A stretch of 42,572 nt of DNA. Source: an uncultured Woeseiaceae bacterium (GTDB lineage Bacteria > Pseudomonadota > Gammaproteobacteria > Steroidobacterales > Woeseiaceae). Below are positions 1,148 to 25,613 of the stretch, piece after piece. Numbering within the stretch: the stretch's first letter is position 1; each line of letters begins with the position of its first letter. Under the pieces are notes generated by a model that had not been told where the DNA came from, did no database searches, and worked only from the letters and a program-made list of their open reading frames with translations. The position numbers and the translations under genes were made by a program. The stretch spans positions 1-42,572 of the forward strand of contig CAJJBK010000055.1 in the NCBI GenBank assembly GCA_905182415.1, in the 5' to 3' direction.

Positions 1148-2149
1148 ATGTCATTGCAGTTTTTTTTCGTCTTAATCCCATTTTGTTTGTTTGTTTTTCT
1201 TCTGTATTTATATATCAACAGAATGGCATCATATGATAAGAGAAAAAATCATACTCGAGCAACAATAGCACTGCCTAGCCATGATCAAATTATCGATTCT
1301 TTCTCTCTATGTTCGATCACCGTCAAAGACCAATGTTTTAGGGCGCGAATTTATAACATACAGGGCAAAGGTGATGCAATTTTTCTATTGCATGGATGGC
1401 CGCAATCATCAATATCTTGGCAGCCTTTTTTCGACGCCGCAAAAGACTTGGATTATAAAATCATTGCTTTTGATCAAAGGGGCTATAGCCCTGGGGCAAG
1501 ATCGCAAGATATTCATGATTATACTACCGATAAATTAGTTGAAGATGTGTTTTCCATTGCTGATGAGTTGAATATCTCACGTTTTCATCTTGCTGGCCAC
1601 GATTGGGGTGCTGCAATCGGGTGGGCGGCAGTGATGTCTCAGCCAAAAAGAATTTTATCTTGGACGGCTTTATCTATCCCTCATTCATTGGCCTTCTTTG
1701 AGGCGCTTAGAGTTGATAAGGAGCAAAAGAAAAAGAGTCGCTACATTATCTTATTTAGAATGCGATGGCTGCCCGAGCTACTATTAATGACAAGAAATTT
1801 TTTTATTTTGAGGTCAATGATATTCCGTTGGATGCCAGAATTACACACTCAAGAGTACCTCGCTATCCTCTCTGAGCCTGGCGCTCTAAGTGCCACATTA
1901 AATTGGTATCGAGCAATAGGGATGAGTAAGAAATTTCCTTACAATCCTATTATTAATTTACCTGTATTATTTATCTGGGGCAATCGTGATCCTGCCATAA
2001 GCAAGCAGGCGATAACTTTGCAAGATCAATATATCAAAGGAGTGTATAAAAAAATTGAACTGGATGCAGGTCATTGGTTGCTTGAGAGAAGATCAAATTT
2101 AGTGATAGATAATATGTTAAAACATATTGCTAGCGTGACAAAAGATTAG
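1148..2149 (+). CDS. Membrane-anchored alpha/beta hydrolase, epoxide hydrolase-like
   Basis: An alpha/beta-hydrolase of about 333 residues. HGWPQSS forms the oxyanion-hole region. GHDWGAAIGW has Asp instead of Ser as nucleophile, as in soluble epoxide hydrolases and haloalkane dehalogenases. DAGHWLLERR near the C-terminus supplies the catalytic His. The Arg-rich, aromatic cap region lies between. The first 25 residues (SLQFFFVLIPFCLFVFLLYL) form one hydrophobic segment, so the enzyme is probably tethered to the inner membrane; most relatives are soluble. I chose the ATG at 1148 over a TTG four codons upstream (1136). The stop codon overlaps the convergent oxidase gene by four bases. The substrate cannot be told from sequence. 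Confidence 0.8.
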   Translation: MSLQFFFVLIPFCLFVFLLYLYINRMASYDKRKNHTRATIALPSHDQIIDSFSLCSITVKDQCFRARIYNIQGKGDAIFLLHGWPQSSISWQPFFDAAKDLDYKIIAFDQRGYSPGARSQDIHDYTTDKLVEDVFSIADELNISRFHLAGHDWGAAIGWAAVMSQPKRILSWTALSIPHSLAFFEALRVDKEQKKKSRYIILFRMRWLPELLLMTRNFFILRSMIFRWMPELHTQEYLAILSEPGALSATLNWYRAIGMSKKFPYNPIINLPVLFIWGNRDPAISKQAITLQDQYIKGVYKKIELDAGHWLLERRSNLVIDNMLKHIASVTKD

Positions 2150-3297
2150 ACACGTAGGTTATCAAAGATATTTTTATTATCCTCTATAATACGTTCCGTG
2201 ACTTCTGCTTCTGGATTACGTGACCAATCGTCTTTTTGGTTAGAACCACCCAGAAGTATCTCTCCTGCCCGAGGGAACATATAAGTGACATCTGATCCAC
2301 CGCCGACAGTCAGATAATCTATAGCTGGATCCGGAGGAATAAATACCAATTGCCCCTTTACTGGCGTCAATTCATCATCTTTAAATAATGCTTTAGAGCC
2401 TAATCCTGTACAGTTAAAAATTGTATTTTCTTGGAGTGAGAGAATATCATCTAAATTTGTAAAATTACGGATTTTAAAGTGACCGCCCGTTAAAAGAAAG
2501 TCATCTCGAACACGTCTTAAGAATGTTGCTGGTTCGATAATCATAGTGACTGTGCGTTTAACAAAATCAACTGGAAAGGGGTGTTCGTGAGGTTGAAGAT
2601 CAGCAACTGAGGAGAAAAGTTCAGGGAGTTCTCTGAGGTAGTATGATTCTTTAATTTCTTTATTACCTAGATAATAATTTTCGAGAAAACGAATTCCATA
2701 ATTTGCGCCACTTAAATTTTGATAAGCATGATGAGAGATTCGCGAAGCATATTTATATTGCTGTTCAAAGGCTTTGGAAGCAACCCCCTCTTCAAATACA
2801 CTCGTAGGTGCCCATTGACCAGCCCCTACATTTGATACTGAGTGCCGTGAAATATCTCGTGTATAGATGGTGACTTCCCATCCAGCATCTTGAAGTAATC
2901 TAGCTGTGGTAAGACCCATTATTCCACTTCCTATTACAGCAGCACGATTAATAGGAAGTCCTGCTGTTTGATGGACTGCCAGAGCGGACGAACCCCATGA
3001 TAATGAAATACCGCCTCCACCATGCCCGTAATTATGGATAATATTTTTTTTGTCATATTCTTCTCGTTTTACCACAAAACCAGAGGGTCGATAAGGTCTT
3101 AAGCCCACAATAACACGCACTATTTTATTGCGAGCTATGCGTGGAGCATAGAATGGTGTTCTAGAATGTGGACGCTCATAATTCTTATTTAAAATTGAAG
3201 ATATATCTGAACATGCACTTAAGGATGAGACTGCACCCACTGAGCCAAGTGTTTTAATTACTTGACGACGCGTGGTATTAATTGTGGAGTTATTCAT
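2146..3297 (-). CDS. Circularly permuted D-amino-acid-oxidase-like FAD protein, Tat-exported lipoprotein
   Basis: A FAD oxidoreductase of the DAO/DAAO fold, about 383 residues. The N-terminus has a twin-arginine signal (TTRRQVIKTLG) followed by a lipobox-like SLSAC, so it is probably exported folded and lipid-anchored. The module VGLRPYRPSG plus HNYGHGGGGISLSWG, which ends canonical D-amino-acid oxidases, occurs here at residues 64-102, before the Rossmann motif AVIGSGIMGL (about 120-129). The protein then runs through GAGQWAP, NCTGLGSKAL, KGQLV, VTYMFPRAG and LLGGSNQKDDWS, and stops where canonical enzymes would enter the GLRP segment. Active-site Arg (GLRP) and Tyr (VTYMFP) equivalents are both present. 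Oxidative deamination of a D-amino acid or related amine in the periplasm is inferred. I chose the ATG at 3297 over a TTG at 3309. It is divergent from the RibA-like gene. Confidence 0.82.
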   Translation of the reverse strand: MNNSTINTTRRQVIKTLGSVGAVSSLSACSDISSILNKNYERPHSRTPFYAPRIARNKIVRVIVGLRPYRPSGFVVKREEYDKKNIIHNYGHGGGGISLSWGSSALAVHQTAGLPINRAAVIGSGIMGLTTARLLQDAGWEVTIYTRDISRHSVSNVGAGQWAPTSVFEEGVASKAFEQQYKYASRISHHAYQNLSGANYGIRFLENYYLGNKEIKESYYLRELPELFSSVADLQPHEHPFPVDFVKRTVTMIIEPATFLRRVRDDFLLTGGHFKIRNFTNLDDILSLQENTIFNCTGLGSKALFKDDELTPVKGQLVFIPPDPAIDYLTVGGGSDVTYMFPRAGEILLGGSNQKDDWSRNPEAEVTERIIEDNKNIFDNLRV

Positions 3298-3396: not shown

Positions 3397-4218
3397 ATGT
3401 TTACATATATAGACCCTGAGATTCGTGGCCGTCTTCTAGAGCGAGGAAAGCTAGTTACCATTAATTACGATGGTAAGATCATTGATTCAAGTTCTGATTT
3501 AAGCATTGAGAGTCATGCAATTAGCATTCTAGGCCCAATCCCGTTGCCGATATTAAATATGAGCTGTGAAACTACAGTCGATTGGTATGCTTGTGTGCGT
3601 CATACTGAACTCAACAAAGTTGAAGAGTTAGCTAATGAACTTCGTGACAGTGAAGGAAAGAATTCCTTTGCTATATTGGCATCCTCTATGGCTGTTAATA
3701 GTGTTCTAGTTATGGGTGATAACTCCAAATGGCAGAATCCATTGATTCGAGTTCATTCTAGTTGTTTAACTGGAGATGTATTTGGTTCTGGAAGATGTGA
3801 ATGTGGACCACAATTAGATATGTCATTGGCGAACATTAAAGATGATGAGTCAGGTGGTATGGTGGTTTACATGTCGGGACATGAAGGGAGAGGTATTGGT
3901 TTGTGGGCCAAAGCGGCTACTTATTTATTGCAAGATGACGGAGAAGATACTTATCAAGCAAATCGCTCGCTTGGTCTAGAAGAAGATTCACGTGACTTTG
4001 TAGATGCAGCCATTTTAATAAAATATTTTAATGGCTCTCAGCCTTTTAGATTAATGACCAATAACCCAAAAAAAATTAATGATTTAAAATATTTTGGTTT
4101 AGATAAAATTACACCGGTTAAACATCTGATTGGTATCACAGATAAAAATCGAAATTATCTTTCAGCAAAACAAAATTGGGGTCACAATTTGGATGATAAT
4201 GACCTCAAAAAAGAATAA
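3397..4218 (+). CDS. GTP cyclohydrolase II-like protein with N-terminal extension
   Basis: A protein of 273 residues. Its C-terminal 160 residues are a GTP cyclohydrolase II domain, which opens GTP to the diaminopyrimidine used for riboflavin. Zinc ligands are Cys123, Cys134 and Cys136 in SCLTGDVFGSGRCEC. The catalytic Tyr (about 176, AATYLLQ), the Asp-Ser-Arg trio (197-199, EEDSRDF) and LMTNNPKKI are all kept. Two features differ from E. coli RibA (196 residues). About 88 extra residues lie at the N-terminus with no motif I recognise. The usual YLRQEGRGIGL loop reads YMSGHEGRGIGL, one residue longer. It may be a divergent RibA or a RibA-like paralogue of other pathways. No other riboflavin gene is adjacent. 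It ends exactly where the convergent queF gene ends. Confidence 0.8.
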   Translation: MFTYIDPEIRGRLLERGKLVTINYDGKIIDSSSDLSIESHAISILGPIPLPILNMSCETTVDWYACVRHTELNKVEELANELRDSEGKNSFAILASSMAVNSVLVMGDNSKWQNPLIRVHSSCLTGDVFGSGRCECGPQLDMSLANIKDDESGGMVVYMSGHEGRGIGLWAKAATYLLQDDGEDTYQANRSLGLEEDSRDFVDAAILIKYFNGSQPFRLMTNNPKKINDLKYFGLDKITPVKHLIGITDKNRNYLSAKQNWGHNLDDNDLKKE

Positions 4219-5045: not shown

Positions 5046-6707
5046 CTAGAATCGCGAAGATGTAAGTGTTACATCCGCATTAGCCCAAATAATATCGAAG
5101 CGCTGCTGTATCTCACTAAAATCTTTGTCTTGTGCTTTTAATGCTTCAATGAGTCCATACATTGCCCATCCATTTCTGGGATATCGTTTTAGATTTTCTT
5201 TAAACACACCCTCGGCCTTATTAGAGTTGCCCGCTGCTAGTAGGGCTTTACCAAGTGATAATCTAGTAGGGTAATACCAGAAGGGCGGTTCTGTATATGG
5301 CAGTTTATCCTGAATTAAAACGGCTTTAGTGAATTGGGCGATGGCTTCAGAGGTATTATTTTCAGCCATAGCTATTTCACCCAATGCTAGAGAATCAGCG
5401 ATATTCAAAAGCATTGAGGCGGGATAATAAATGGAATCAAGATGCATTACATCGTCCGTATCTTTGTATTCACCGAGCATAGCCCGCTCTTTTTTTGCCA
5501 TTTCTAATTCACCGATATTAGCGAAAGCTACAGCACGCGTGTAATGCCAAATACCATTCGCATATTCTAATCTTTCAGCCGGTGCTGGTTGTTGTAATAC
5601 TTCATTCCAGCGACCAAACTGAACTAGTGATTGCATTGGAATGGTTTTAAAGAATTCCACTCCTGGAAACTGATCAATCATTTCAATTCTAACGTTTTTT
5701 GCAACTTTCTCGCCTGCTTCGATGGCTACTTTGCTTCTTCCCTCCATACTTGAAGAAGCCCATAAAAAGTGAATATTATGGGGATAGTAGGCAGCAGGAT
5801 AGAACCCCTGTGCGTTACAAGCAGCAATATAAGCCTCATCAACTGCAGCTGCCATTTCATTCGATTTTGAGGCGTCTGCATAACGACCTAAACGCCAATA
5901 TATATGAGATGGCATATGTACAAGGTGTCCAGCACCAGGCACTAGATCAAGCAAAATATCAGCCGAAGCCTCAGCTCGTTCTGGCTTTGAAGATGATTCT
6001 ACCGCATGTATGTATAGATGGATTGCCATAGGGTGAGCTGGATTCCTAGCCAGTACCTCTTCAAGCTTATTGATTGCTTCGATAGTAAGGGGCTTTGGGT
6101 TATCTTCATCAATCCAATAATTCCATGGCATGGTATTCATGAGTGATTCAGCAAATAAAGAAGCCGCATCATCATCCTGGGGATATTTATGTGACAAAGA
6201 GCGCATCGCTTCAGCATAAGCTTGATCTAATGGCGCTCTAGGTGAAGAGAGGTCACCATTATATCTTTCGGCTAATGCATCTATATAGTCACGCTCTTTT
6301 TGAGAGGCATTTTCTTTAAGTGATATGGCTTTTTGTATTGCTATAAATGCAGCTTCACGATCTTGATCTGCCATAATAACTGCACCATTACTGGTTACAT
6401 TGATATTGGGACCTAGTGCTAGAGCTTCACCCCAGAAACACATAGCACATTCTGGATCTAAAGTTTGAGCAGCTCTGAATGAGCGCGCCGATTCAGCATG
6501 ATTGAAAGCGAAATCAATGGTTAAGCCTTGATCGAAGTATCTTTGTACATATGGATCTTTTGTGGAGATTGGATGAATGTGATTGCCCATGTTCTCAAAA
6601 AGAGGTGCTCCTGCACGTGTCACCAGATCATTTAAGCTTTCTTCAGAAGAGCAACTTCCAATAAATACTAAGGTTAAGATCAATAATATAGATTTAAATT
6701 TATTCAT
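5046..6707 (-). CDS. TPR-repeat lipoprotein
   Basis: A 553-residue protein with an N-terminal lipoprotein signal (KSILLILTLVFIGSCSS; Cys at about residue 19), so it is likely anchored to a membrane facing the periplasm. The mature part is mostly helical and contains tetratricopeptide-like units, for example around residues 65-105 (FNHAESARSFRAAQTLDPE), 225-300, and the C-terminal stretch with GKALLAAGNSNKAEGVF. The segment DPECAMCFWGEALALGPN has a CxxC pair but no following His, so it is not a heme c site. The family occurs widely in environmental bacteria; to my knowledge no function has been assigned. It lies between the EVE gene and queF on the same strand. A scaffold role is inferred from TPR repeats only. 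Confidence 0.8.
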   Translation of the reverse strand: MNKFKSILLILTLVFIGSCSSEESLNDLVTRAGAPLFENMGNHIHPISTKDPYVQRYFDQGLTIDFAFNHAESARSFRAAQTLDPECAMCFWGEALALGPNINVTSNGAVIMADQDREAAFIAIQKAISLKENASQKERDYIDALAERYNGDLSSPRAPLDQAYAEAMRSLSHKYPQDDDAASLFAESLMNTMPWNYWIDEDNPKPLTIEAINKLEEVLARNPAHPMAIHLYIHAVESSSKPERAEASADILLDLVPGAGHLVHMPSHIYWRLGRYADASKSNEMAAAVDEAYIAACNAQGFYPAAYYPHNIHFLWASSSMEGRSKVAIEAGEKVAKNVRIEMIDQFPGVEFFKTIPMQSLVQFGRWNEVLQQPAPAERLEYANGIWHYTRAVAFANIGELEMAKKERAMLGEYKDTDDVMHLDSIYYPASMLLNIADSLALGEIAMAENNTSEAIAQFTKAVLIQDKLPYTEPPFWYYPTRLSLGKALLAAGNSNKAEGVFKENLKRYPRNGWAMYGLIEALKAQDKDFSEIQQRFDIIWANADVTLTSSRF

Positions 6708-17788: not shown

Positions 17789-18541
17789 ATGAGCGAAAAA
17801 CCAGTTATTGCAGTTCCTGCTGATAGGAGACTCATCGGTATTCATCCATTTCATATGGTGGGTGAAAAATATATAACTGCCCTCAAAGATGCCGCTGAAG
17901 GTTTGCCATGGATGATACCGGCCACTGGCAATGACAGTATGCTTGATGATGTTTTTAGCAAAATTGATGGTCTATTTTTAACTGGGAGTATCTCAGATAT
18001 TGAGCCGCATCATTATCAAGGAAAATCAAGTCGTCCAGGAACGTTGCACGATCCTGGACGAGATGCCACCGTATTTCCACTCGCACGCAAAGCATTAGAT
18101 GCTGGTATGCCTATTTTTGCAGTTTGTCGAGGTTTTCAAGAATTAAATGTTTTGCTGGGAGGTACTTTACATCAACAGATACATGAGGTTGAGGGATATA
18201 TAGACCACCGTGAAAATAAAAATGATCCCATTGAGAAACAGTATGGGCCTGCACATACTGTTTCTTTGATAAAAGATAGTATGTTAAGCAGTTTCACAGA
18301 TCAGGAAACAGTGAGTGTTAATTCACTGCATGGTCAGGGAGTTGATCGAATTGCTTCGGGAGTAAATATAGAGGCCATAGCGGAAGATGGAGTAATTGAG
18401 GCCTTTAAAGTTAGTGATACAGATGGGTTTGCTTATGCGGTTCAGTGGCATCCAGAATGGAAGGTTTTGGAGAACCCTTTATCGCTTTCAATATTCAGAG
18501 CATTCGGTGATGCGTGTCGAGAATATGCACAAAAAAAATGA
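17789..18541 (+). CDS. puuD: Gamma-glutamyl-GABA hydrolase
   Basis: A 250-residue class I glutamine-amidotransferase-fold hydrolase (peptidase C26). It frees GABA and glutamate from gamma-glutamyl-GABA, the last step of the Puu route. The nucleophile is Cys113 in FAVCRGFQELNVLLGG. The His-Glu pair is at 221/223 in QWHPEW, and VNSLHGQGVD (177-186) is typical. Length matches E. coli PuuD (254). It is followed 42 bases later by the second PuuA-like gene, as in many puu/pau clusters. Confidence 0.93.
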   Translation: MSEKPVIAVPADRRLIGIHPFHMVGEKYITALKDAAEGLPWMIPATGNDSMLDDVFSKIDGLFLTGSISDIEPHHYQGKSSRPGTLHDPGRDATVFPLARKALDAGMPIFAVCRGFQELNVLLGGTLHQQIHEVEGYIDHRENKNDPIEKQYGPAHTVSLIKDSMLSSFTDQETVSVNSLHGQGVDRIASGVNIEAIAEDGVIEAFKVSDTDGFAYAVQWHPEWKVLENPLSLSIFRAFGDACREYAQKK

Positions 18542-18583
18542 TCAATAATTTTAATTAACGTGCTTTAGCACATTGGGTTAATA

Positions 18584-19915
18584 GTGAGTAAAAAAGATAT
18601 TTTTAATAATTGGTTTAAGCAGCATGATATAGAAGATGTCGAAGTCTTATTGCCAGATATGGCGGGAGCAGCGCGCGGTAAAATAATTCCTGCATCAAGT
18701 TTTGGTGAAGGTGAAATGAAGATGCCAGAAGCTATATTTGGCCAAACTGTTTCTGGTAACTATTACGAGACTGACGACAACGTTGAAGATCGGGATATGT
18801 TGCTGGTTCCTGATCCAGATACCCTCTGTTCCGTTCCTTGGATGGAGCTTCCAACAGCATCGGTTATATTTGATGGTTTTACGAAAGATGGAGAAGAAAT
18901 CTTAACCTCCCCAAGAAGAGTGCTTCAGAATGTATTGTCACTATATAGTCAACAAGGCTGGAATCCAGTGGTTGCTCCAGAAGCAGAATTCTATTTACTG
19001 AATCCATCTACGGACATAAATGTTGAAATAGAACCGCCAGAAGGACGGCTAGGGCGAACGGATACCTCTAAGCAACCTTATAGTTTGGATGCAATGAATA
19101 ATTTTGATCCATTTATTAATCAAGTTTATGAATATAGTGAGCTACAAGGAATTAACATTGATAATGTCTCGCAAGAAATGGGTCCTGCTCAGCTGGAGAT
19201 CAATTTTGTCCACGGCGATGCTTTATCACTAGCTGATCAAGTTTTTCGCTTTAAACGAACTGTTCGTGAAGTAGCAATTATGCATGGAATGCATGCAACT
19301 TTTATGGCTAGGCCAATAACTGGAGAAGCTGGTAGCGCTTTGCATATTCACCAAAGTATCCTTGACAAAAGTGGGGAAAATATATTTTCGAATAAAAATG
19401 GTACACAGACAGATTTATTTCTGAATTATATTGGTGGTTTGCAGAAATATATGCCTGAAGCACTACTTTTATTCGCCCCTTATGCTAATTCATATCGACG
19501 TTTCTTAAGCTATTGGTCGTCACCAGTCAATTTAGAATGGGCCGTGGATAATAGAAGTGTGGGTTTAAGGGTGCCTGATTGCGAACCTCATAATCGTCGG
19601 GTAGAAAATCGTTTAGCTGGATCGGACGTAAATCCTTATCTAGTATTGGCGGCAACTCTGGCTTGTGGTTATCTGGGTATGATTGAAAAAATTAAACCAC
19701 GAGACTCAATCGAGGGAAGTGCATATGATCTTCCTTTTGACTTGCATCGAAATATGTATGCTTCCATAGATGCTTTTTCAGCGAGTAAAGCTATGCGCAA
19801 GATGCTAGGCGATTCGTTTGTCGATATGTATTCTGGCATCAAGCAAAAAGAACATGAACAATTTCAAGAAATCATTACTCCTTGGGAGAGAGAAGTATTG
19901 ATGTTGAACGTTTAA
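18584..19915 (+). CDS. puuA: Gamma-glutamylputrescine synthetase (second glutamine-synthetase-like copy)
   Basis: A 443-residue glutamine synthetase-fold ligase. It probably makes gamma-glutamylputrescine from glutamate, putrescine and ATP, the entry step of the Puu route. Motifs are APEAEFYLLNP, GPAQLEINFVHGD, GSALHIHQSIL, NSYRRFLSYWSSPVNLEWAVDNRSV-type arginine region and NRLAGSDVNPYL. The start is GTG at 18584. It is directly downstream of puuD. It differs clearly from the copy at 12.7-14.1 kb, in particular in the arginine region (YWSSPVNLEW against MFAPVEPNWG). Assignment to putrescine is by linkage to puuD. Confidence 0.87.
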   Translation: MSKKDIFNNWFKQHDIEDVEVLLPDMAGAARGKIIPASSFGEGEMKMPEAIFGQTVSGNYYETDDNVEDRDMLLVPDPDTLCSVPWMELPTASVIFDGFTKDGEEILTSPRRVLQNVLSLYSQQGWNPVVAPEAEFYLLNPSTDINVEIEPPEGRLGRTDTSKQPYSLDAMNNFDPFINQVYEYSELQGINIDNVSQEMGPAQLEINFVHGDALSLADQVFRFKRTVREVAIMHGMHATFMARPITGEAGSALHIHQSILDKSGENIFSNKNGTQTDLFLNYIGGLQKYMPEALLLFAPYANSYRRFLSYWSSPVNLEWAVDNRSVGLRVPDCEPHNRRVENRLAGSDVNPYLVLAATLACGYLGMIEKIKPRDSIEGSAYDLPFDLHRNMYASIDAFSASKAMRKMLGDSFVDMYSGIKQKEHEQFQEIITPWEREVLMLNV

Positions 19916-19916
19916 G

Positions 19917-19945
19917 CATAATATGAAATTTTATATCATATTATG
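19917..19945. promoter_or_regulatory. Palindromic operator, copy 2 (probable IclR site)
   Basis: Arms CATAATATGA (19917-19926) and TCATATTATG (19936-19945) are perfect reverse complements with a nine-base A/T spacer. The flanking A at 19946 matches copy 1. Arm sequence, spacer length and half-site pattern TCAT/ATGA repeat those of the site in front of iclR. It begins two bases after the end of the second synthetase gene and precedes the seven-gene polyamine operon by about 85 bases. Confidence 0.72.
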
Positions 19946-19954
19946 AGGTAAGAA

Positions 19955-19978
19955 AGACAATTGAGATTACAATTGTCT
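19955..19978. repeat. Perfect 9-base inverted repeat in the operon leader
   Basis: AGACAATTG (19955-19963) and CAATTGTCT (19970-19978) are exact reverse complements around a six-base spacer. The repeat lies between the IclR-type site and the aminotransferase start. It has no T-run after it, so it is not a standard terminator. It could be a second operator or an RNA hairpin in the leader. Confidence 0.5.
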
Positions 19979-20030
19979 AGTATTAGATTATATATTTATC
20001 GTTAAGTAAAAATTTATTAAGGAGCGAGAT

Positions 20031-21404
20031 ATGTCTCTCTTAGAGCAACGCACCAAGGCGGACTGGCAAGCATTGGATAGTGATCATTATATTCATCCGT
20101 TTACGGATCATAAGGATCTAGGCGAAAAAAAGAGTCGTATTATTGTAAGGGCGAAAGGCGTATACATATATGATGTGGACGACAATGAAATTTTAGACGC
20201 AATGTCTGGTCTTTGGTGTGTAAATGCCGGTTATGGCAGAACTGAATTGGCTGATGCTGCCTCGGATCAACTCAAAGAATTACCTTATTACAACAGTTTC
20301 TTTCAATGCGCTAATCCTCCATCTATAGAACTAGCACAGATGCTCAAAAACATCACTCAAGCACATTTAAATCGTGTTTTTTATACTGGCTCAGGATCCG
20401 AATCAATCGATACCATGATTAGAATAGTAAGGCGGTATTGGGAGGTTATGGGACAACCGAAGCGGACCACGATCATAGCAAGAAAAAACGCTTATCATGG
20501 CTCCACAATTGCAGGTGTGAGCCTTGGTGGAATGAGTCCAATGCATTCTCAAGGTGGACCTTTGTTACCTGGTATTGAGCATATTGAACAGCCTTATTGG
20601 TTTGAATCAGATCGCAGTCTTTCCCAGGCAGATTTCGGATTGAAAATGGCCGGTTTACTGGAGGAGAGAATCCTTGAGCTTGGAGCTGAGAATGTGGCAG
20701 CATTTGTTGGCGAACCTATCCAAGGTGCTGGTGGTGTAATCATTCCGCCTGATAACTATTGGCCAGAAATAGAACGCATTTGTAAACACTATGGAGTGCT
20801 GTTAGTTAATGATGAGGTTATTTGTGGTTTTGGGCGATTAGGAGAGTGGTTCGGCTCAGATCATTTTAAAGTAAAGCCGGATTTAATAACTTTTGCCAAG
20901 GGTGTAACTTCAGGTTATCTCCCTTTGGGTGGTGTAATGGTTGGTGATAAAGTGGCTGATGTCCTGATAGAAAAAGGTGGTGAGTTTAATCATGGGTTTA
21001 CTTATTCAGGGCACCCTGCATCGTGTGCGGTTGCGATTAAAAATATACAAATATTGCAAAATGAAAAACTGGTTGAACGTGTTAAAAATGATATCGGTCC
21101 CTATATGCAGAAAAAATGGCATGCTCTAGCAGAGCACCCTGTTGTGGGCGAAACTAGAATGGTCGGTTTAATGGGTGCAATGGAATTAGTCTCTAGCAAG
21201 ACATCATGCGAAAGATTTGATGATAAGAGCACAGCAGGTACAGTTTATAGAGATTTTGCTGTTAATAATGGACTGGTGATGAGGGCGGTTGGCGATACAA
21301 TTGTAACTTCACCGCCACTGATTATTAGTCATGATGAAGTGGATGAATTGATCGAGAAAACTTGGAAATGCCTTGATCATACTCAAAAAGTAATGGCTTC
21401 TTAA
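20031..21404 (+). CDS. Class III aminotransferase, putrescine/omega-amine:pyruvate type
   Basis: A 457-residue PLP-dependent omega-aminotransferase. PLP lysine is Lys290 in TFAKGVTSGYLPLGG and the pyridine-binding Asp is Asp261 in VNDEVICGFGRLGEWFG. YTGSGSESIDTMI (118-130) and AYHGSTIAG contact the phosphate. The sequence resembles SpuC-type putrescine:pyruvate aminotransferases, so it may move the amino group of putrescine or related diamines to pyruvate. GABA or other omega-amino acids are alternatives. A strong ribosome binding site (AAGGAG) precedes the ATG. It is the first gene of a seven-gene operon under the second palindromic operator. Confidence 0.87.
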   Translation: MSLLEQRTKADWQALDSDHYIHPFTDHKDLGEKKSRIIVRAKGVYIYDVDDNEILDAMSGLWCVNAGYGRTELADAASDQLKELPYYNSFFQCANPPSIELAQMLKNITQAHLNRVFYTGSGSESIDTMIRIVRRYWEVMGQPKRTTIIARKNAYHGSTIAGVSLGGMSPMHSQGGPLLPGIEHIEQPYWFESDRSLSQADFGLKMAGLLEERILELGAENVAAFVGEPIQGAGGVIIPPDNYWPEIERICKHYGVLLVNDEVICGFGRLGEWFGSDHFKVKPDLITFAKGVTSGYLPLGGVMVGDKVADVLIEKGGEFNHGFTYSGHPASCAVAIKNIQILQNEKLVERVKNDIGPYMQKKWHALAEHPVVGETRMVGLMGAMELVSSKTSCERFDDKSTAGTVYRDFAVNNGLVMRAVGDTIVTSPPLIISHDEVDELIEKTWKCLDHTQKVMAS

Positions 21405-21425
21405 TTCAAAAATAAAGAAAATAAT

Positions 21426-22400
21426 ATGAATAAAAAGAATGGTAAAAATATGGATCGACCGGAATTATATGGCCTAAAGCTTGAACCAACCTACTCTGGG
21501 TCTACGACTTTTTATCGGCGCGAAGCATCACAAGATCTAAATGGTGTTGATTTGGCTGTCACTGGAATACCTCTTGATACAGCTGTAACTAATCGGCCAG
21601 GAACAAGATTTGGACCACGTGCGGTGAGGTCAGCTTCTACAATTTTAGCTTGGGAAAGACCATATGGCTTAGATTTTAATCCCGTCGATCGAATTGCAAT
21701 GGTGGATTATGGTGACTGCTATTTTGATTTTGGTGCACCTGAATCGGTCCCAAATTCAATTGAAGCTCATATTTCTTCGATAATCAACCAGGGATCGGCT
21801 GTGTTTAGTATTGGTGGTGATCACTTTGTCAGTTATCCAATACTAAAAGCGCATGCAAAAAAATATAAAGAGCCAATATCATTGATTCAATTTGATGCTC
21901 ATACTGATACCTGGGAAGCAGGTGAGGGAGATGATGAGCCAGCAGATGAAAATAGAATTGATCATGGCACCATGTTTTATCAGGCCACAAAAGACGGAAT
22001 ACTTGACCCAAAAAGCTCAGTTCAGATTGGAATTAGAACTGAAAATCCAGATACCATGGGCTTTAATATTCTAGATGCACCTTGGGTGCATAATAATGGG
22101 ATTGAAGCGGTTATCAAAAAAACACTTGAGATAGTCGGTGATAAACCTGTTTACATGACTTTTGATATTGACTGTCTTGACCCAAGTTATGCTCCAGGTA
22201 CAGGAACTCCTGTTTGTGGTGGACTAAGTACCCATCAAGCAATGAGTATTATTCGGGGCCTTTCTGGAATCAATTTAATCGGGATGGATTTAGTTGAAGT
22301 TTCACCAGCGTATGATGTTGGAGAAATTACGGCATTAGCGGGAGCTCATGTTGCCATGGAAATGATTGCAGTTTTTGCAAGTAAATCAGAATTTAAATAG
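21426..22400 (+). CDS. Agmatinase/ureohydrolase family enzyme
   Basis: A 324-residue binuclear manganese ureohydrolase. Metal ligands are His133 (SIGGDHF), Asp157/His159/Asp161 (QFDAHTDTW) and Asp247/Asp249 (TFDIDCLDP). NRPGTRFGPRAVRSAS and PGTGTPVCGGL are also typical. Hydrolysis of agmatine to putrescine and urea fits the operon. 4-Guanidinobutyrate or 3-guanidinopropionate are possible substrates because these enzymes are close relatives. A second in-frame ATG at 21450 (MDRPELYG) begins nearer to the conserved part, so the first eight codons are uncertain. It lies 21 bases after the aminotransferase gene. Confidence 0.88.
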   Translation: MNKKNGKNMDRPELYGLKLEPTYSGSTTFYRREASQDLNGVDLAVTGIPLDTAVTNRPGTRFGPRAVRSASTILAWERPYGLDFNPVDRIAMVDYGDCYFDFGAPESVPNSIEAHISSIINQGSAVFSIGGDHFVSYPILKAHAKKYKEPISLIQFDAHTDTWEAGEGDDEPADENRIDHGTMFYQATKDGILDPKSSVQIGIRTENPDTMGFNILDAPWVHNNGIEAVIKKTLEIVGDKPVYMTFDIDCLDPSYAPGTGTPVCGGLSTHQAMSIIRGLSGINLIGMDLVEVSPAYDVGEITALAGAHVAMEMIAVFASKSEFK

Positions 22401-22412
22401 TGGATTTTTAGA

Positions 22413-23699
22413 ATGATAGAAACATCAGAGCATACCGCTTCTTATTACGCCGCTTCCAGCAATTGGCAAACTGATTATCCTAAACTTCAAGGAGAAATTA
22501 GCGTTGATATAGCTGTGGTGGGCGGAGGTTTCACTGGAATCTCTACCGCGCTTAGATTGATCGAGAATGGTTACAAAGTGGCTATTGTCGAAGCTAATAG
22601 GATCAGTTGGGGCGCCTCTGGAAGGAATGGTGGACAACTCATTGATGGGTTTGTAATGGATTTAGATAAATTTGAAAAAAAAGTGGGTAAGGCAGGTGCT
22701 GACATCGCTTATCAGATGGGTATTGAATCTCGCGATGTAGTTTTAGAAAGAATAGAGAAATATTCAATTGATTGTGATTTGCGTTTTGGATTCCTAGATG
22801 TGGCAATGAATCAAGGTGATATTGATGAATTTCATGAGTGGATCGAAGATAAAGATAAAAAAAACTACCCTCATAAAATGGAATTTATACCTAAAGAAAA
22901 ATTACAAGAGCATATTGGTTCAGAGCGATATATTGCTGGTGTTGTTAACTACGGCAACGGTCATCTACATCCTTTAAATCTATGCATCGGTGAAGCACGC
23001 GCTATAACAGAACAAGGCGGTTTAATTTTCGAACAATCCAAAGTAATTAAAGTTAAGCATGGCGCAAAACCACAAGTTATTACCAAAGAAGGCGTTATTA
23101 ATGCAAAAAAAGTAGTGCTCGCTGGCAATGCTTATTTAGGTAAAACCGAACCTAAGCTTGCTGGTTCAGTTATTCCTGCAGGAAGTTATATAATTGCTAC
23201 AGAGCCTCTCTCAGAAGATCTTGCCAATGAGTTATTACCCTCAAATATGGCGGTATGCGATCAGCGAGTAGGCTTGGATTATTTTAGATTATCGGCGGAT
23301 AGAAGAATGTTATTTGGTGGATTATGTAATTATTCTGGAAGACATCCTAGAAGTATAACTGGAGTACTTAAACCTAAAATGGAACGTGCCTTTCCCCAGC
23401 TAAAGAAGGCGAAAATTGATTATGAATGGGGTGGTTATATAGGGATTAGTATGAATCGAATCCCACAGATGGGACGAATTGAAAATAACACTTACTATAT
23501 ACAAGGTTATTCTGGGCATGGTGTAGCGCCAACACATATTGCGGGCAATGTTATTGCTGATGCGATTATGGGCGACACGGAGAGATTTGATGTATTTGAT
23601 AAGGTATGGCATTTAAAGTTACCGGGAGGCTTGTGGTTTGCTAATCCTGCTTTAGCTCTTGGTATGATGTACCATCGAATTCGAGAGCTACTAGCCTAG
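22413..23699 (+). CDS. puuB: Gamma-glutamylputrescine oxidase
   Basis: A 428-residue FAD amine oxidase of the DAO family. It oxidises gamma-glutamylputrescine to gamma-glutamyl-gamma-aminobutyraldehyde. The N-terminus HTASYYAASSNW precedes the dinucleotide motif VDIAVVGGGFTGIS (31-44) and SWGASGRNGGQL. The C-terminal half has WGGYIGISMNRIPQMG and YSGHGVAPTHIAGN, which close the FAD site. This order is canonical, unlike the permuted DAO-like protein at 2.1-3.3 kb. It sits 12 bases after the agmatinase-family gene and 15 bases before the spermidine-dehydrogenase-like gene. Confidence 0.9.
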   Translation: MIETSEHTASYYAASSNWQTDYPKLQGEISVDIAVVGGGFTGISTALRLIENGYKVAIVEANRISWGASGRNGGQLIDGFVMDLDKFEKKVGKAGADIAYQMGIESRDVVLERIEKYSIDCDLRFGFLDVAMNQGDIDEFHEWIEDKDKKNYPHKMEFIPKEKLQEHIGSERYIAGVVNYGNGHLHPLNLCIGEARAITEQGGLIFEQSKVIKVKHGAKPQVITKEGVINAKKVVLAGNAYLGKTEPKLAGSVIPAGSYIIATEPLSEDLANELLPSNMAVCDQRVGLDYFRLSADRRMLFGGLCNYSGRHPRSITGVLKPKMERAFPQLKKAKIDYEWGGYIGISMNRIPQMGRIENNTYYIQGYSGHGVAPTHIAGNVIADAIMGDTERFDVFDKVWHLKLPGGLWFANPALALGMMYHRIRELLA

Positions 23700-23714
23700 T
23701 AGTATTGAATCTAA

Positions 23715-25613
23715 ATGAAGAGAAAACTCAATATAAGCCGGCGTGATTTTGTAAATGGGTTTGCTCTCAGCCTTGCAGCAGGCACAACTTTATCGCCATT
23801 TGAGTTGCTTGCTAATAATAATTTAGCTTTATCGAGTGCTTATTACCCCCCCGCAATGACTGGAATGAGAGGAAGCCATCAAGGATCTTTTGAGGTGGCT
23901 CACGCATTAGCATGGGCCGGCGCGAAATTTGATGAACCTAAGCACCAAACTGATACCGATTATGATTTAATTGTGGTTGGTGGTGGTCTTTCTGGTTTAT
24001 CTGCCGCTTACTTTTATCGCCAGCGTTATGGTAATGATGCAAAAATTCTTGTTATAGACAACCATGATGATTTTGGTGGTCATGCCAAAAGAAACGAATT
24101 TACGGTCGATGGTAAAAAACTAATCGGTTATGGTGGCAGTCAATCTATCGATACACCCAATTCATATTCGACTCCCGCTAAAAAATTATTGAAAGATATC
24201 GGCGTTATCACTGAACGTTTCTATGATTATTATGATCAAGGGTATTTTGAAACTCGAAATTTAAAACGAGGTCTTTATTTTAGTAATGAGTTGTATGGTA
24301 AAGACGTAGTTTGTGAGAATTTACTGAGAACTGATATAAATAAAGATGATAATGATTTGATTGATATTTTTAATGCATTTCCCCTTGCTGAAGAATCTAA
24401 AAAAGCACTAATTAATTTATTAGAATCAAAGAAGAATTATCTTCAGGATGAACCCTCATTAACAAAAAGAATCGCATTGATGCGGGCAACCAGTTATAGC
24501 GATTTCTTGAGAAAATTTACGAAAGTTCCAGAAGAAGTAGTGCTTTTATACAGAGATAGTCATCGTGGATTATGGGGTGTAGGTTGGGATGCACTTTCAA
24601 CTCTTGAAGCTTATAAAGCGAATATGCCTGGAACTCGATATCTAGATTTAGAGGTGGATTCTGTTAATCCCCATAATATGTATGAGCGAGAGGAGCCTTA
24701 TATCTTTCATTTCCCAGATGGCAATGCTGGCGTTGCCAGAGCATTAGTCAATAAGCTCGTCCCAGGCTCAATAAACGCAGAGACTATGGAAGCTCAAGTT
24801 AAAGCAAAAGTTGATTATGATGCTTTGGATTTAAAGTCTTCAAAAGTGCGTATTCGACTTAACTCTTCTGTGGTTAAAGTGGAGCACACACCTAACCAGG
24901 AATCGGTTAATGTAACTTATATTAATGACGGCGAGTCATACAGAGTTAAGGGTAGACATGTTGTAATGGCTTGTTATAACAATATGTTGCCTCATTTATG
25001 CCCAGAACTACCATTAGCCCAAAAAGAAGCGCTTGATTACGCAACGAAAATTCCATTGGTCTATATCAGTATCGCGGTAAGGAATTGGCGGGCACTTCAT
25101 AACCTTGGTTTTCAAAGTATTACTATTCCACAACCTAAACTGATGCATTCTTTTGGTTTGGACTTCCCAGTAAGTATGGGAGGCTATGATTTTACGCAAA
25201 ATCCAAATCAACCAACGATTCTGCATGGTACTTATGTCCCCACTGATCCAGATAAGGGTTTGAGTTCAAAACAACAAGCGATCAATGGTAGAAGACAGCT
25301 GTATGAAATTAGTTTTGATCAATTTGAGCGCGATATCATTGAGCAAATGCAAGGCTCACTTAAGGGTGGGGGTTTTGATGCCGAGAGAGATATTGCAGGC
25401 ATAACGGTAAATCGATGGCCACATGGTTATGCATGGGAGTACAATGATTTTTCTGATCCTGCTGAATATAATCCTTATAATGGACCGCATATTAAAGGAA
25501 GAGCGAGGATTGGGCGTATCTCCATAGCAAATTCAGATGCTTCGGCTTATGCTTATGTTGATGGCGCTATTGATGCGGCAGATCGAGCTGTGAATGAACA
25601 ATTAAAGATATAA
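23715..25613 (+). CDS. spdH: Spermidine dehydrogenase-like flavoprotein, Tat-exported
   Basis: A 632-residue flavoprotein. A twin-arginine signal (NISRRDFVNGFALSLAAG, residues 6-23) suggests folded export to the periplasm. The FAD motif is IVVGGGLSGLSAAY (86-99), preceded by MRGSHQGSFEVAHALAWAG (51-69), a segment typical of the SpdH family. Length is near that of Pseudomonas aeruginosa SpdH (about 620). SpdH oxidatively cleaves spermidine, giving 4-aminobutanal and 1,3-diaminopropane. The C-terminal end WPHGYAWEYN and IGRISIANSDASAYAYVDGAIDAADRAV fits the flavin domain closure. The neighbouring omega-aminotransferase and MmsA genes can take the C3 product onward. Confidence 0.85.
   Translation: MKRKLNISRRDFVNGFALSLAAGTTLSPFELLANNNLALSSAYYPPAMTGMRGSHQGSFEVAHALAWAGAKFDEPKHQTDTDYDLIVVGGGLSGLSAAYFYRQRYGNDAKILVIDNHDDFGGHAKRNEFTVDGKKLIGYGGSQSIDTPNSYSTPAKKLLKDIGVITERFYDYYDQGYFETRNLKRGLYFSNELYGKDVVCENLLRTDINKDDNDLIDIFNAFPLAEESKKALINLLESKKNYLQDEPSLTKRIALMRATSYSDFLRKFTKVPEEVVLLYRDSHRGLWGVGWDALSTLEAYKANMPGTRYLDLEVDSVNPHNMYEREEPYIFHFPDGNAGVARALVNKLVPGSINAETMEAQVKAKVDYDALDLKSSKVRIRLNSSVVKVEHTPNQESVNVTYINDGESYRVKGRHVVMACYNNMLPHLCPELPLAQKEALDYATKIPLVYISIAVRNWRALHNLGFQSITIPQPKLMHSFGLDFPVSMGGYDFTQNPNQPTILHGTYVPTDPDKGLSSKQQAINGRRQLYEISFDQFERDIIEQMQGSLKGGGFDAERDIAGITVNRWPHGYAWEYNDFSDPAEYNPYNGPHIKGRARIGRISIANSDASAYAYVDGAIDAADRAVNEQLKI

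Follow-up and report, generated by a model that had tools for sequence, protein, structure and literature searches.

Biocatalysis, sensing and medicine all make use of D-amino-acid oxidase (DAAO), a model flavoenzyme whose chain order, with the Rossmann motif first and the GLRP and HNYGHGG segments last, has to our knowledge been taken as fixed. The window analysed here, a stretch of 42,572 nucleotides from an uncultured Woeseiaceae bacterium, encodes a DAAO-like protein in which these segments appear in another order, raising the question of whether the chain is a true circular permutation and what kind of enzyme it would form. The role of bacterial DAAOs has been described as largely unknown (PMC4699246), and a D-amino acid oxidase is included among the proteins of Asaia bogorensis (PMC12502724).

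The window protein gives a Pfam DAO match of 1.3e-30, and no NCBIfam model scores near its own cut-off for it. Among solved structures, human D-aspartate oxidase (DASPO), a fungal DAAO and pig DAAO are closest to it. The protein carries the family's GxGxxG, GxRPxR arginine, HNYGHGGxG and substrate tyrosine; from the N- to the C-terminus, its elements run R10R11, C29, GLRPYRP, HNYGHGG, WG (residues 101-102), GSGIMG and LLGGSNQKDDWS (residues 348-359). Because this order is swapped relative to the canonical one, we file the protein as a permuted variant and not as a canonical DAAO/DASPO member. We take R67 and Y339 to be the counterparts of R283 and Y228 in pig DAAO. Coordinates are collected in Table 1.

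Table 1 Features of the permuted gene and its product (window positions)
Feature	Position	Strand	Remarks
Permuted D-amino-acid-oxidase-like flavoprotein gene	2146..3297	(-)	383 aa from ATG, stop included
Tat-type signal (R10R11) and lipobox-like LSAC, C29	3211..3297	(-)	R10, R11 and C29 invariant in the 17-row alignment, window included
Residues 59-109, canonical C-terminal part, now N-terminal	2971..3123	(-)	Aligns to DASPO 280-330
GLRPYRP, residues 65-71	3085..3105	(-)	R67 equivalent to the substrate arginine (rotated alignment); R in 89/89 aligned rows
HNYGHGGGGISLSWG, residues 88-102, FAD-closing segment, holds HNYGHGG 88-94	2992..3036	(-)	H88-G94 identical in 89/89 rows, partly through selection by this motif
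Linker, about residues 110-117, old C-terminal helix to old N-terminal strand	2947..2970	(-)	Model helix 93-109, strand 118-122; rotation optimum 114
Residues 118-383, canonical 1 to about 265, with Rossmann motif	2149..2946	(-)	Model 86-352 (residues 114-380) on DAAO 1-269
GSGIMG, residues 123-128, FAD-binding GxGxxG	2914..2931	(-)	G123, G125 and G128 in 89/89 rows
Y339, equivalent to the DAAO substrate-binding tyrosine	2281..2283	(-)	Rotated alignment

The initial annotation had recognised the DAAO segments in rotated order, and alignment to solved structures bears this out. In a phmmer search of the PDB, human DASPO (6rkf) matches in two stretches, its residues 5-264 with query residues 109-371 (i-E 1.5e-17) and its residues 280-330 with query residues 60-107 (i-E 1e-5), and pig and fungal DAAO likewise match as two stretches in reversed order. 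A 17-row profile strengthens both 6rkf stretches, to 6.9e-24 and 2.3e-8. Chance motif matches are ruled out, since the E-values hold for both blocks. When the whole genome is scanned with Pfam DAO, the gene is split out of order (model 2-300 at 2155-2943 and 297-350 at 2977-3147, both on the minus strand); the 12 other long DAO-family matches in the host genome each form one near-full-length piece.

The permutation was tested by a scan in which the mature window protein was rotated every fifth residue and scored against a 320-position canonical profile built from 12 sequences (nine bacterial and three from the PDB). The native chain aligns as two domains with a best single alignment of 142.9 bits (model 4-259), and the chain started at residue 114 gives one near-full-length alignment of 191.5 bits (model 4-313). 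Residue 114 is the scan maximum, with scores dropping on either side, and lies in the linker between the front-block helix and the Rossmann strand. As a control, the 12 canonical sequences, the same ones from which the profile was built, were put into the permuted order, and every one of them scored lower, by 87-123 bits.

Does the arrangement belong to this locus alone? Among the genome of the window and those of 59 relatives, searches at 1e-3 gave matches in 28 of the 60; 22 of these matches are near full length and colinear, two are partial, and four are weak and confined to the Rossmann region. In named genome contigs, at least 580 places encode a relative by degenerate patterns for HNYGHGG and WGSSALAV. 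Chain order was assessed in the best 80 of these, 79 of which were parsed; adding the window protein and five relatives from plasmids gives a set of 85 proteins (L numbers below denote individual loci). L033 was dropped because of a stop in the match frame, although a family ORF is seen there, and L105 was excluded, since this Mesorhizobium plasmid copy (2735-3798) is divided between two overlapping frames that are annotated as two proteins.

All 85 native proteins show two domains in reversed order, so that the 84 relatives supply the same-order homologues that the initial annotation had proposed to look for. It is on these unforced domain positions, and not on a motif-order scan, that our statement of chain order rests; the scan sought GxGxxG solely downstream of HNYGHG, and some of the GxGxxG places it returned are not the Rossmann motif. 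GxRPxR precedes HNYGHG in 78 of the 79 parsed loci and is unmatched in L081. Rotation improves the best score in 82 of the 85 proteins; L070, L079 and L102 show no gain, each changing by less than 1 bit. No second H-N/H-YG-H/Q-G motif occurs in the 85 open frames, which agrees with the earlier statement that all pieces are present once; by this motif search, none of the frames is a duplication intermediate with the block at both ends. An assembly or sequencing rearrangement at the locus, for which no evidence was found, is so improbable as to be negligible and is refuted by independent genomes: near-full-length colinear matches occur in 21 of the 59 other genomes, another genome holds a 95%-identical colinear locus over 9.3 kb, and the blocks are reversed in all 84 relatives.

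Two details of the junctions differ from the initial annotation. It had the chain ending right after LLGGSNQKDDWS, but 24 residues come after DDWS, including a helix at residues 364-379 (model 336-351) that aligns with the canonical stretch preceding GLRP. It also had the old C-terminus joined to the export signal; instead, a short linker connects the helix that used to end the chain to the Rossmann strand that used to begin it, and the export signal sits on the new N-terminus, which is the former internal loop preceding GLRP. At the other end of the chain, a longer C-terminal tail with a PxxESFFGL-like end is present in the permuted members L055, L070, L079, L086, L097 and L099.

Structure prediction, also proposed in the initial annotation, yielded a confident AlphaFold2 model of residues 29-383 from 89 sequences (pLDDT 95.3, pTM 0.92); an earlier model built from 17 sequences was too weak (pLDDT 67.6). 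In Foldseek the top-ranked chains are those of DAAO and DASPO, and VIA-align places model residues 86-352, corresponding to residues 114-380, on the two-domain fold of DAAO (residues 1-269) with a Z of about 23 and an rmsd of 2.2-2.3 in the top rows, at 20-25% identity to DAAO/DASPO over about 250 aligned residues. Neither search overlays model residues 1-85 or the canonical C-terminal segment to which they correspond in sequence. For the front block, the equivalent of the strands and last helix of that canonical segment, the model shows three strands and a helix at high confidence; the high pTM speaks for a single body in which this block packs against the remainder, a prediction that may lean on canonical DAAO structures from the training of AlphaFold2. 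The alternative of swapped modules with a different fold is not supported; the confident model and the DAAO overlay, which excludes the front block, speak against it. Each block occurs once, in rotated order, in a protein that is homologous to DAAO and has the same predicted fold, as in a natural circular permutation. Together with the rotation scan, the reversed blocks in 85 of 85 proteins and a separate tree group (below), the swapped matches and this fold strongly support a circular permutation of the DAAO chain in the window protein, as the initial annotation had suggested as one of two options.

R67, R70, H88-G94, G123, G125 and G128 are identical in all 89 aligned rows, with the invariance of HNYGHGG partly selected because most rows were found or cut out by that motif. 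The position of Y339 is more variable (Tyr in 68 rows, His in 18, Gly in two and Phe in one), and the replacement of Tyr in some rows may mean that substrates vary between members.

To place the permuted proteins relative to canonical ones, we built an unrooted tree from rotated sequences, using 52 of the 97 available rows. The 40 permuted and 12 canonical rows fall on either side of one branch with support of 100/99, recovered in 100% of 200 bootstrap trees, and a tree restricted to the block whose order the two groups share (the colinear block; 29 and 12 rows) agrees, with an SH-aLRT of 99. As the tree is unrooted, a single event is the simplest reading and not proof, and we infer one permutation. 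Other DAO-superfamily enzymes share the canonical order, which is therefore taken as the older one. In a midpoint-rooted drawing, whose root serves the drawing only, a cytosolic-looking group from Rhizobium, Nonomuraea and Bradyrhizobium is the first branch among the permuted rows. That the swapped order arose repeatedly, and that the tree groups these rows for reasons besides single descent, seems very unlikely to us. The main tree does cover 52 of 97 rows with thin canonical sampling (12 rows), several rows are of unusual composition, a long end branch leads to one canonical sequence, and the tree carries no root; against repeated origins stand the support for the single branch, the same split in the colinear-block tree, and the break region shared by the five permuted rows displayed in the colinear-block analysis.

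The permuted members span seven phyla by record name, a count to be read with the caution that many records are metagenome bins whose individual taxon labels may be wrong. By record title they include Gammaproteobacteria (among them Woeseiaceae and Alteromonas), sphingomonads and other Alphaproteobacteria, Acidobacteriota, Gemmatimonadota, Bacteroidota, Verrucomicrobiota and Zixiibacteriota, and the Nonomuraea member adds Actinomycetota. With few candidates scored per genome, the permuted profile matches 20 of 398 genomes of the phylum at 1e-20, and a canonical Streptomyces query matches nine of the same genomes at 1e-15, the window's own included in both counts; all nine are in the permuted list and are partial matches, and by this one query, at that depth of scoring, no canonical enzyme was seen in the 398 genomes. 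Canonical-order relatives are present on Burkholderia and Vibrio plasmids. In a class-level draw, only the window's own genome of 143 has the gene, which is thus patchy. Viral and phage homologues were looked for and none was found.

The initial annotation described a Tat signal and a lipobox, and at the level of motifs both hold: the window protein has a twin arginine (R10R11), a hydrophobic stretch and a lipobox cysteine (C29 in LSAC), with both arginines and the cysteine invariant in 17 rows. Under a loose pattern applied to the open frame before HNYGHGG, 81 of the 85 proteins have a twin arginine, and in 68 of the 85 a script, again with a loose pattern, finds a lipobox-like cysteine as well; by eye a cysteine is also present in L050, L051, L076, L098 and L099 and absent from some others, such as L095 and L106. 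The four proteins that lack the twin-arginine pattern are L100, cut by a contig end, and L101 (Rhizobium), L102 (Nonomuraea) and L107 (Bradyrhizobium), which are cytosolic in appearance. Since some permuted members lack the pattern, export, though frequent, does not go hand in hand with the permutation. Judged by these motifs, the permuted enzyme would usually be a Tat-exported lipoprotein outside the cytoplasm, and a Tat signal implies that FAD would be loaded and the chain folded ahead of export.

In the window the permuted gene stands alone, with a convergent alpha/beta hydrolase gene on one side (the gene ends overlap by 4 bases) and a divergent RibA-like gene on the other; S-formylglutathione hydrolase and QueF lie further out. 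An all-against-all ORF comparison of the 85 loci revealed no conserved partner gene: the largest cluster (72 loci) is the permuted gene itself, a 12-locus cluster resembles antisense shadow frames, and the next covers eight loci. Nor did any Pfam family occur, at 1e-6, in more than two of the 43 close neighbours scanned (40 of 50 listed and three others). In two rhizobia an annotated FAD-binding oxidoreductase gene precedes the permuted gene and a TPP enzyme gene lies behind it. On a Kozakia plasmid (L106, 4866-6526) the permuted gene is directly followed by an annotated cytochrome c gene, with serine hydrolases, another FAD-dependent oxidoreductase and a TonB receptor nearby.

Other genes of the window were recorded in passing. 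The GTP cyclohydrolase II-like protein at 3397-4218 (273 aa) passes the PRK00393 subfamily cut-off and falls below that of TIGR00505 ribA, and about 100 residues precede its GTP cyclohydrolase II match. A lipoprotein-like ORF of 553 aa at 5046-6707 on the minus strand, which has no Pfam match at 1e-20, has relatives near the permuted gene in L021, L022 and L045 (Pseudomonadales by title). At 17789-25613 a plus-strand gene run resembles polyamine catabolism and encodes gamma-glutamyl-GABA hydrolase-like and glutamine-synthetase-like proteins, a class III aminotransferase, an agmatinase, a canonical-order DAO-family oxidase, and a 632-aa protein that matches no NCBIfam model at 1e-40 and no Pfam family at 1e-20.

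Chain order, family, spread, the one tree group, predicted fold, conserved site residues and signal motif are all computed results, and with these in hand we infer the location, substrate and electron acceptor of the window enzyme. We consider it likely that the protein belongs to a single-origin, circularly permuted branch of DAAO/DASPO, whose members are usually Tat-exported lipoproteins that oxidise D-amino acids outside the cytoplasm. A canonical chain would have been opened in the loop preceding the GLRPxRP strand, with a short linker bridging its former C-terminal helix and its former N-terminal Rossmann strand, and the product would fold into the same FAD enzyme, founding a branch that is presumably old and probably of single origin. 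The new N-terminus, with its Tat signal and lipobox, would send the folded, FAD-loaded enzyme through Tat, after which it would most likely be lipoprotein-anchored outside the cytoplasm. In the reaction proposed there, the substrate carboxylate would be bound by R67 and Y339 while FAD accepts the alpha-carbon hydride of a D-amino acid (or similar amine acid), the imino acid product would hydrolyse to a keto acid and ammonia, and the reduced FAD would be reoxidised by O2, producing H2O2, or by an electron carrier. Hydride transfer to FAD is established for DAAO, and the conserved arginine, tyrosine and FAD segments make binding of a D-amino acid carboxylate and hydride transfer to FAD the most likely chemistry.

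Two departures from this scheme concern function and keep the permuted fold. The main substrate may differ, being another alpha-amino or imino acid, a D-peptide end or an aminated sugar acid. His in place of Tyr339 in 18 of 89 rows, and the rhizobial (FAD-binding oxidoreductase, TPP enzyme) and Kozakia (hydrolase) neighbours, which suggest other pathways, fit such a change; the arginine kept in all 89 rows, the tyrosine kept in the window protein and the best matches to DAAO/DASPO, with glycine and sarcosine oxidases lower, argue against it, and we give a different substrate less than an even chance. A dehydrogenase that passes electrons to a c-type cytochrome or another periplasmic carrier, and not to O2, seems to us somewhat unlikely. 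It would suit members that are mostly exported by motif, the Kozakia gene that directly precedes a cytochrome c gene, and a related protein found within the flanks of eight of the 85 loci, whose L024 member has a CxxCH motif. However, among the 84 loci with nearest neighbours listed, Kozakia (L106) alone has a CxxCH gene within 250 bases, those next to the permuted gene in L030, L049, L055 and L097 lie 360-1290 bases off, seven of the eight loci with the related protein are Proteobacteria by title, and no cytochrome occurs among the two genes scanned on either side in the window.

Comparison with known systems sets the permuted proteins apart. With canonical DAAO/DASPO (human 6rkf; pig 1dao and 1an9; Rasamsonia 7ct4) they share the Rossmann motif, the GxRPxR arginine, H-x-YGHG and the fold, and they differ in the swapped blocks and, usually, a Tat signal in front. 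Bacterial DAAO-like proteins from Streptomyces, Streptantibioticus, Nocardia, Tsukamurella, Burkholderia, Vibrio and Mycobacterium plasmid records have the canonical order and lie on the opposite side of the tree; seven of these nine fit all three motif patterns (L131 fails HNYGHG and L133 fails GxRPxR), and where annotated they are named FAD-dependent oxidoreductase. Glycine oxidase ThiO shares the DAO-superfamily fold, but the window protein scores 63.6 against an NCBIfam cut-off of 250.8, so that it is not ThiO by equivalog, and ThiO overlays with a Z of 17.4-18.7, below the value of about 23 that DASPO and pig DAAO reach. D-amino acid dehydrogenase DadA belongs to the DAO superfamily as well; here the window protein scores 30.2, far below the NCBIfam cut-off of 383. 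The same kind of change, a rotated motif order within one family, is described for cpRAS GTPases (PMC2430557), an unrelated protein family. Among the top-ranked open-access papers found by full-text searches, none describes a natural permuted DAAO in its title or the start of its abstract; the author of the initial annotation likewise knew of no described enzyme with this order, while allowing that similar database entries may exist.

A broader reading, which we put forward as speculative and on balance improbable, is that one ancient permutation founded the main Gram-negative DAAO lineage, a membrane-anchored, periplasmic enzyme of seven or more phyla that would harvest D-amino acids from peptidoglycan turnover and feed the respiratory chain, not produce H2O2, with a new N-terminus that suits anchoring. 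In plasmid records the permuted members are named just FAD-dependent oxidoreductase, which hides the class. The permuted DAAO-like chain is common to many bacterial proteins, most of them apparently built for export.
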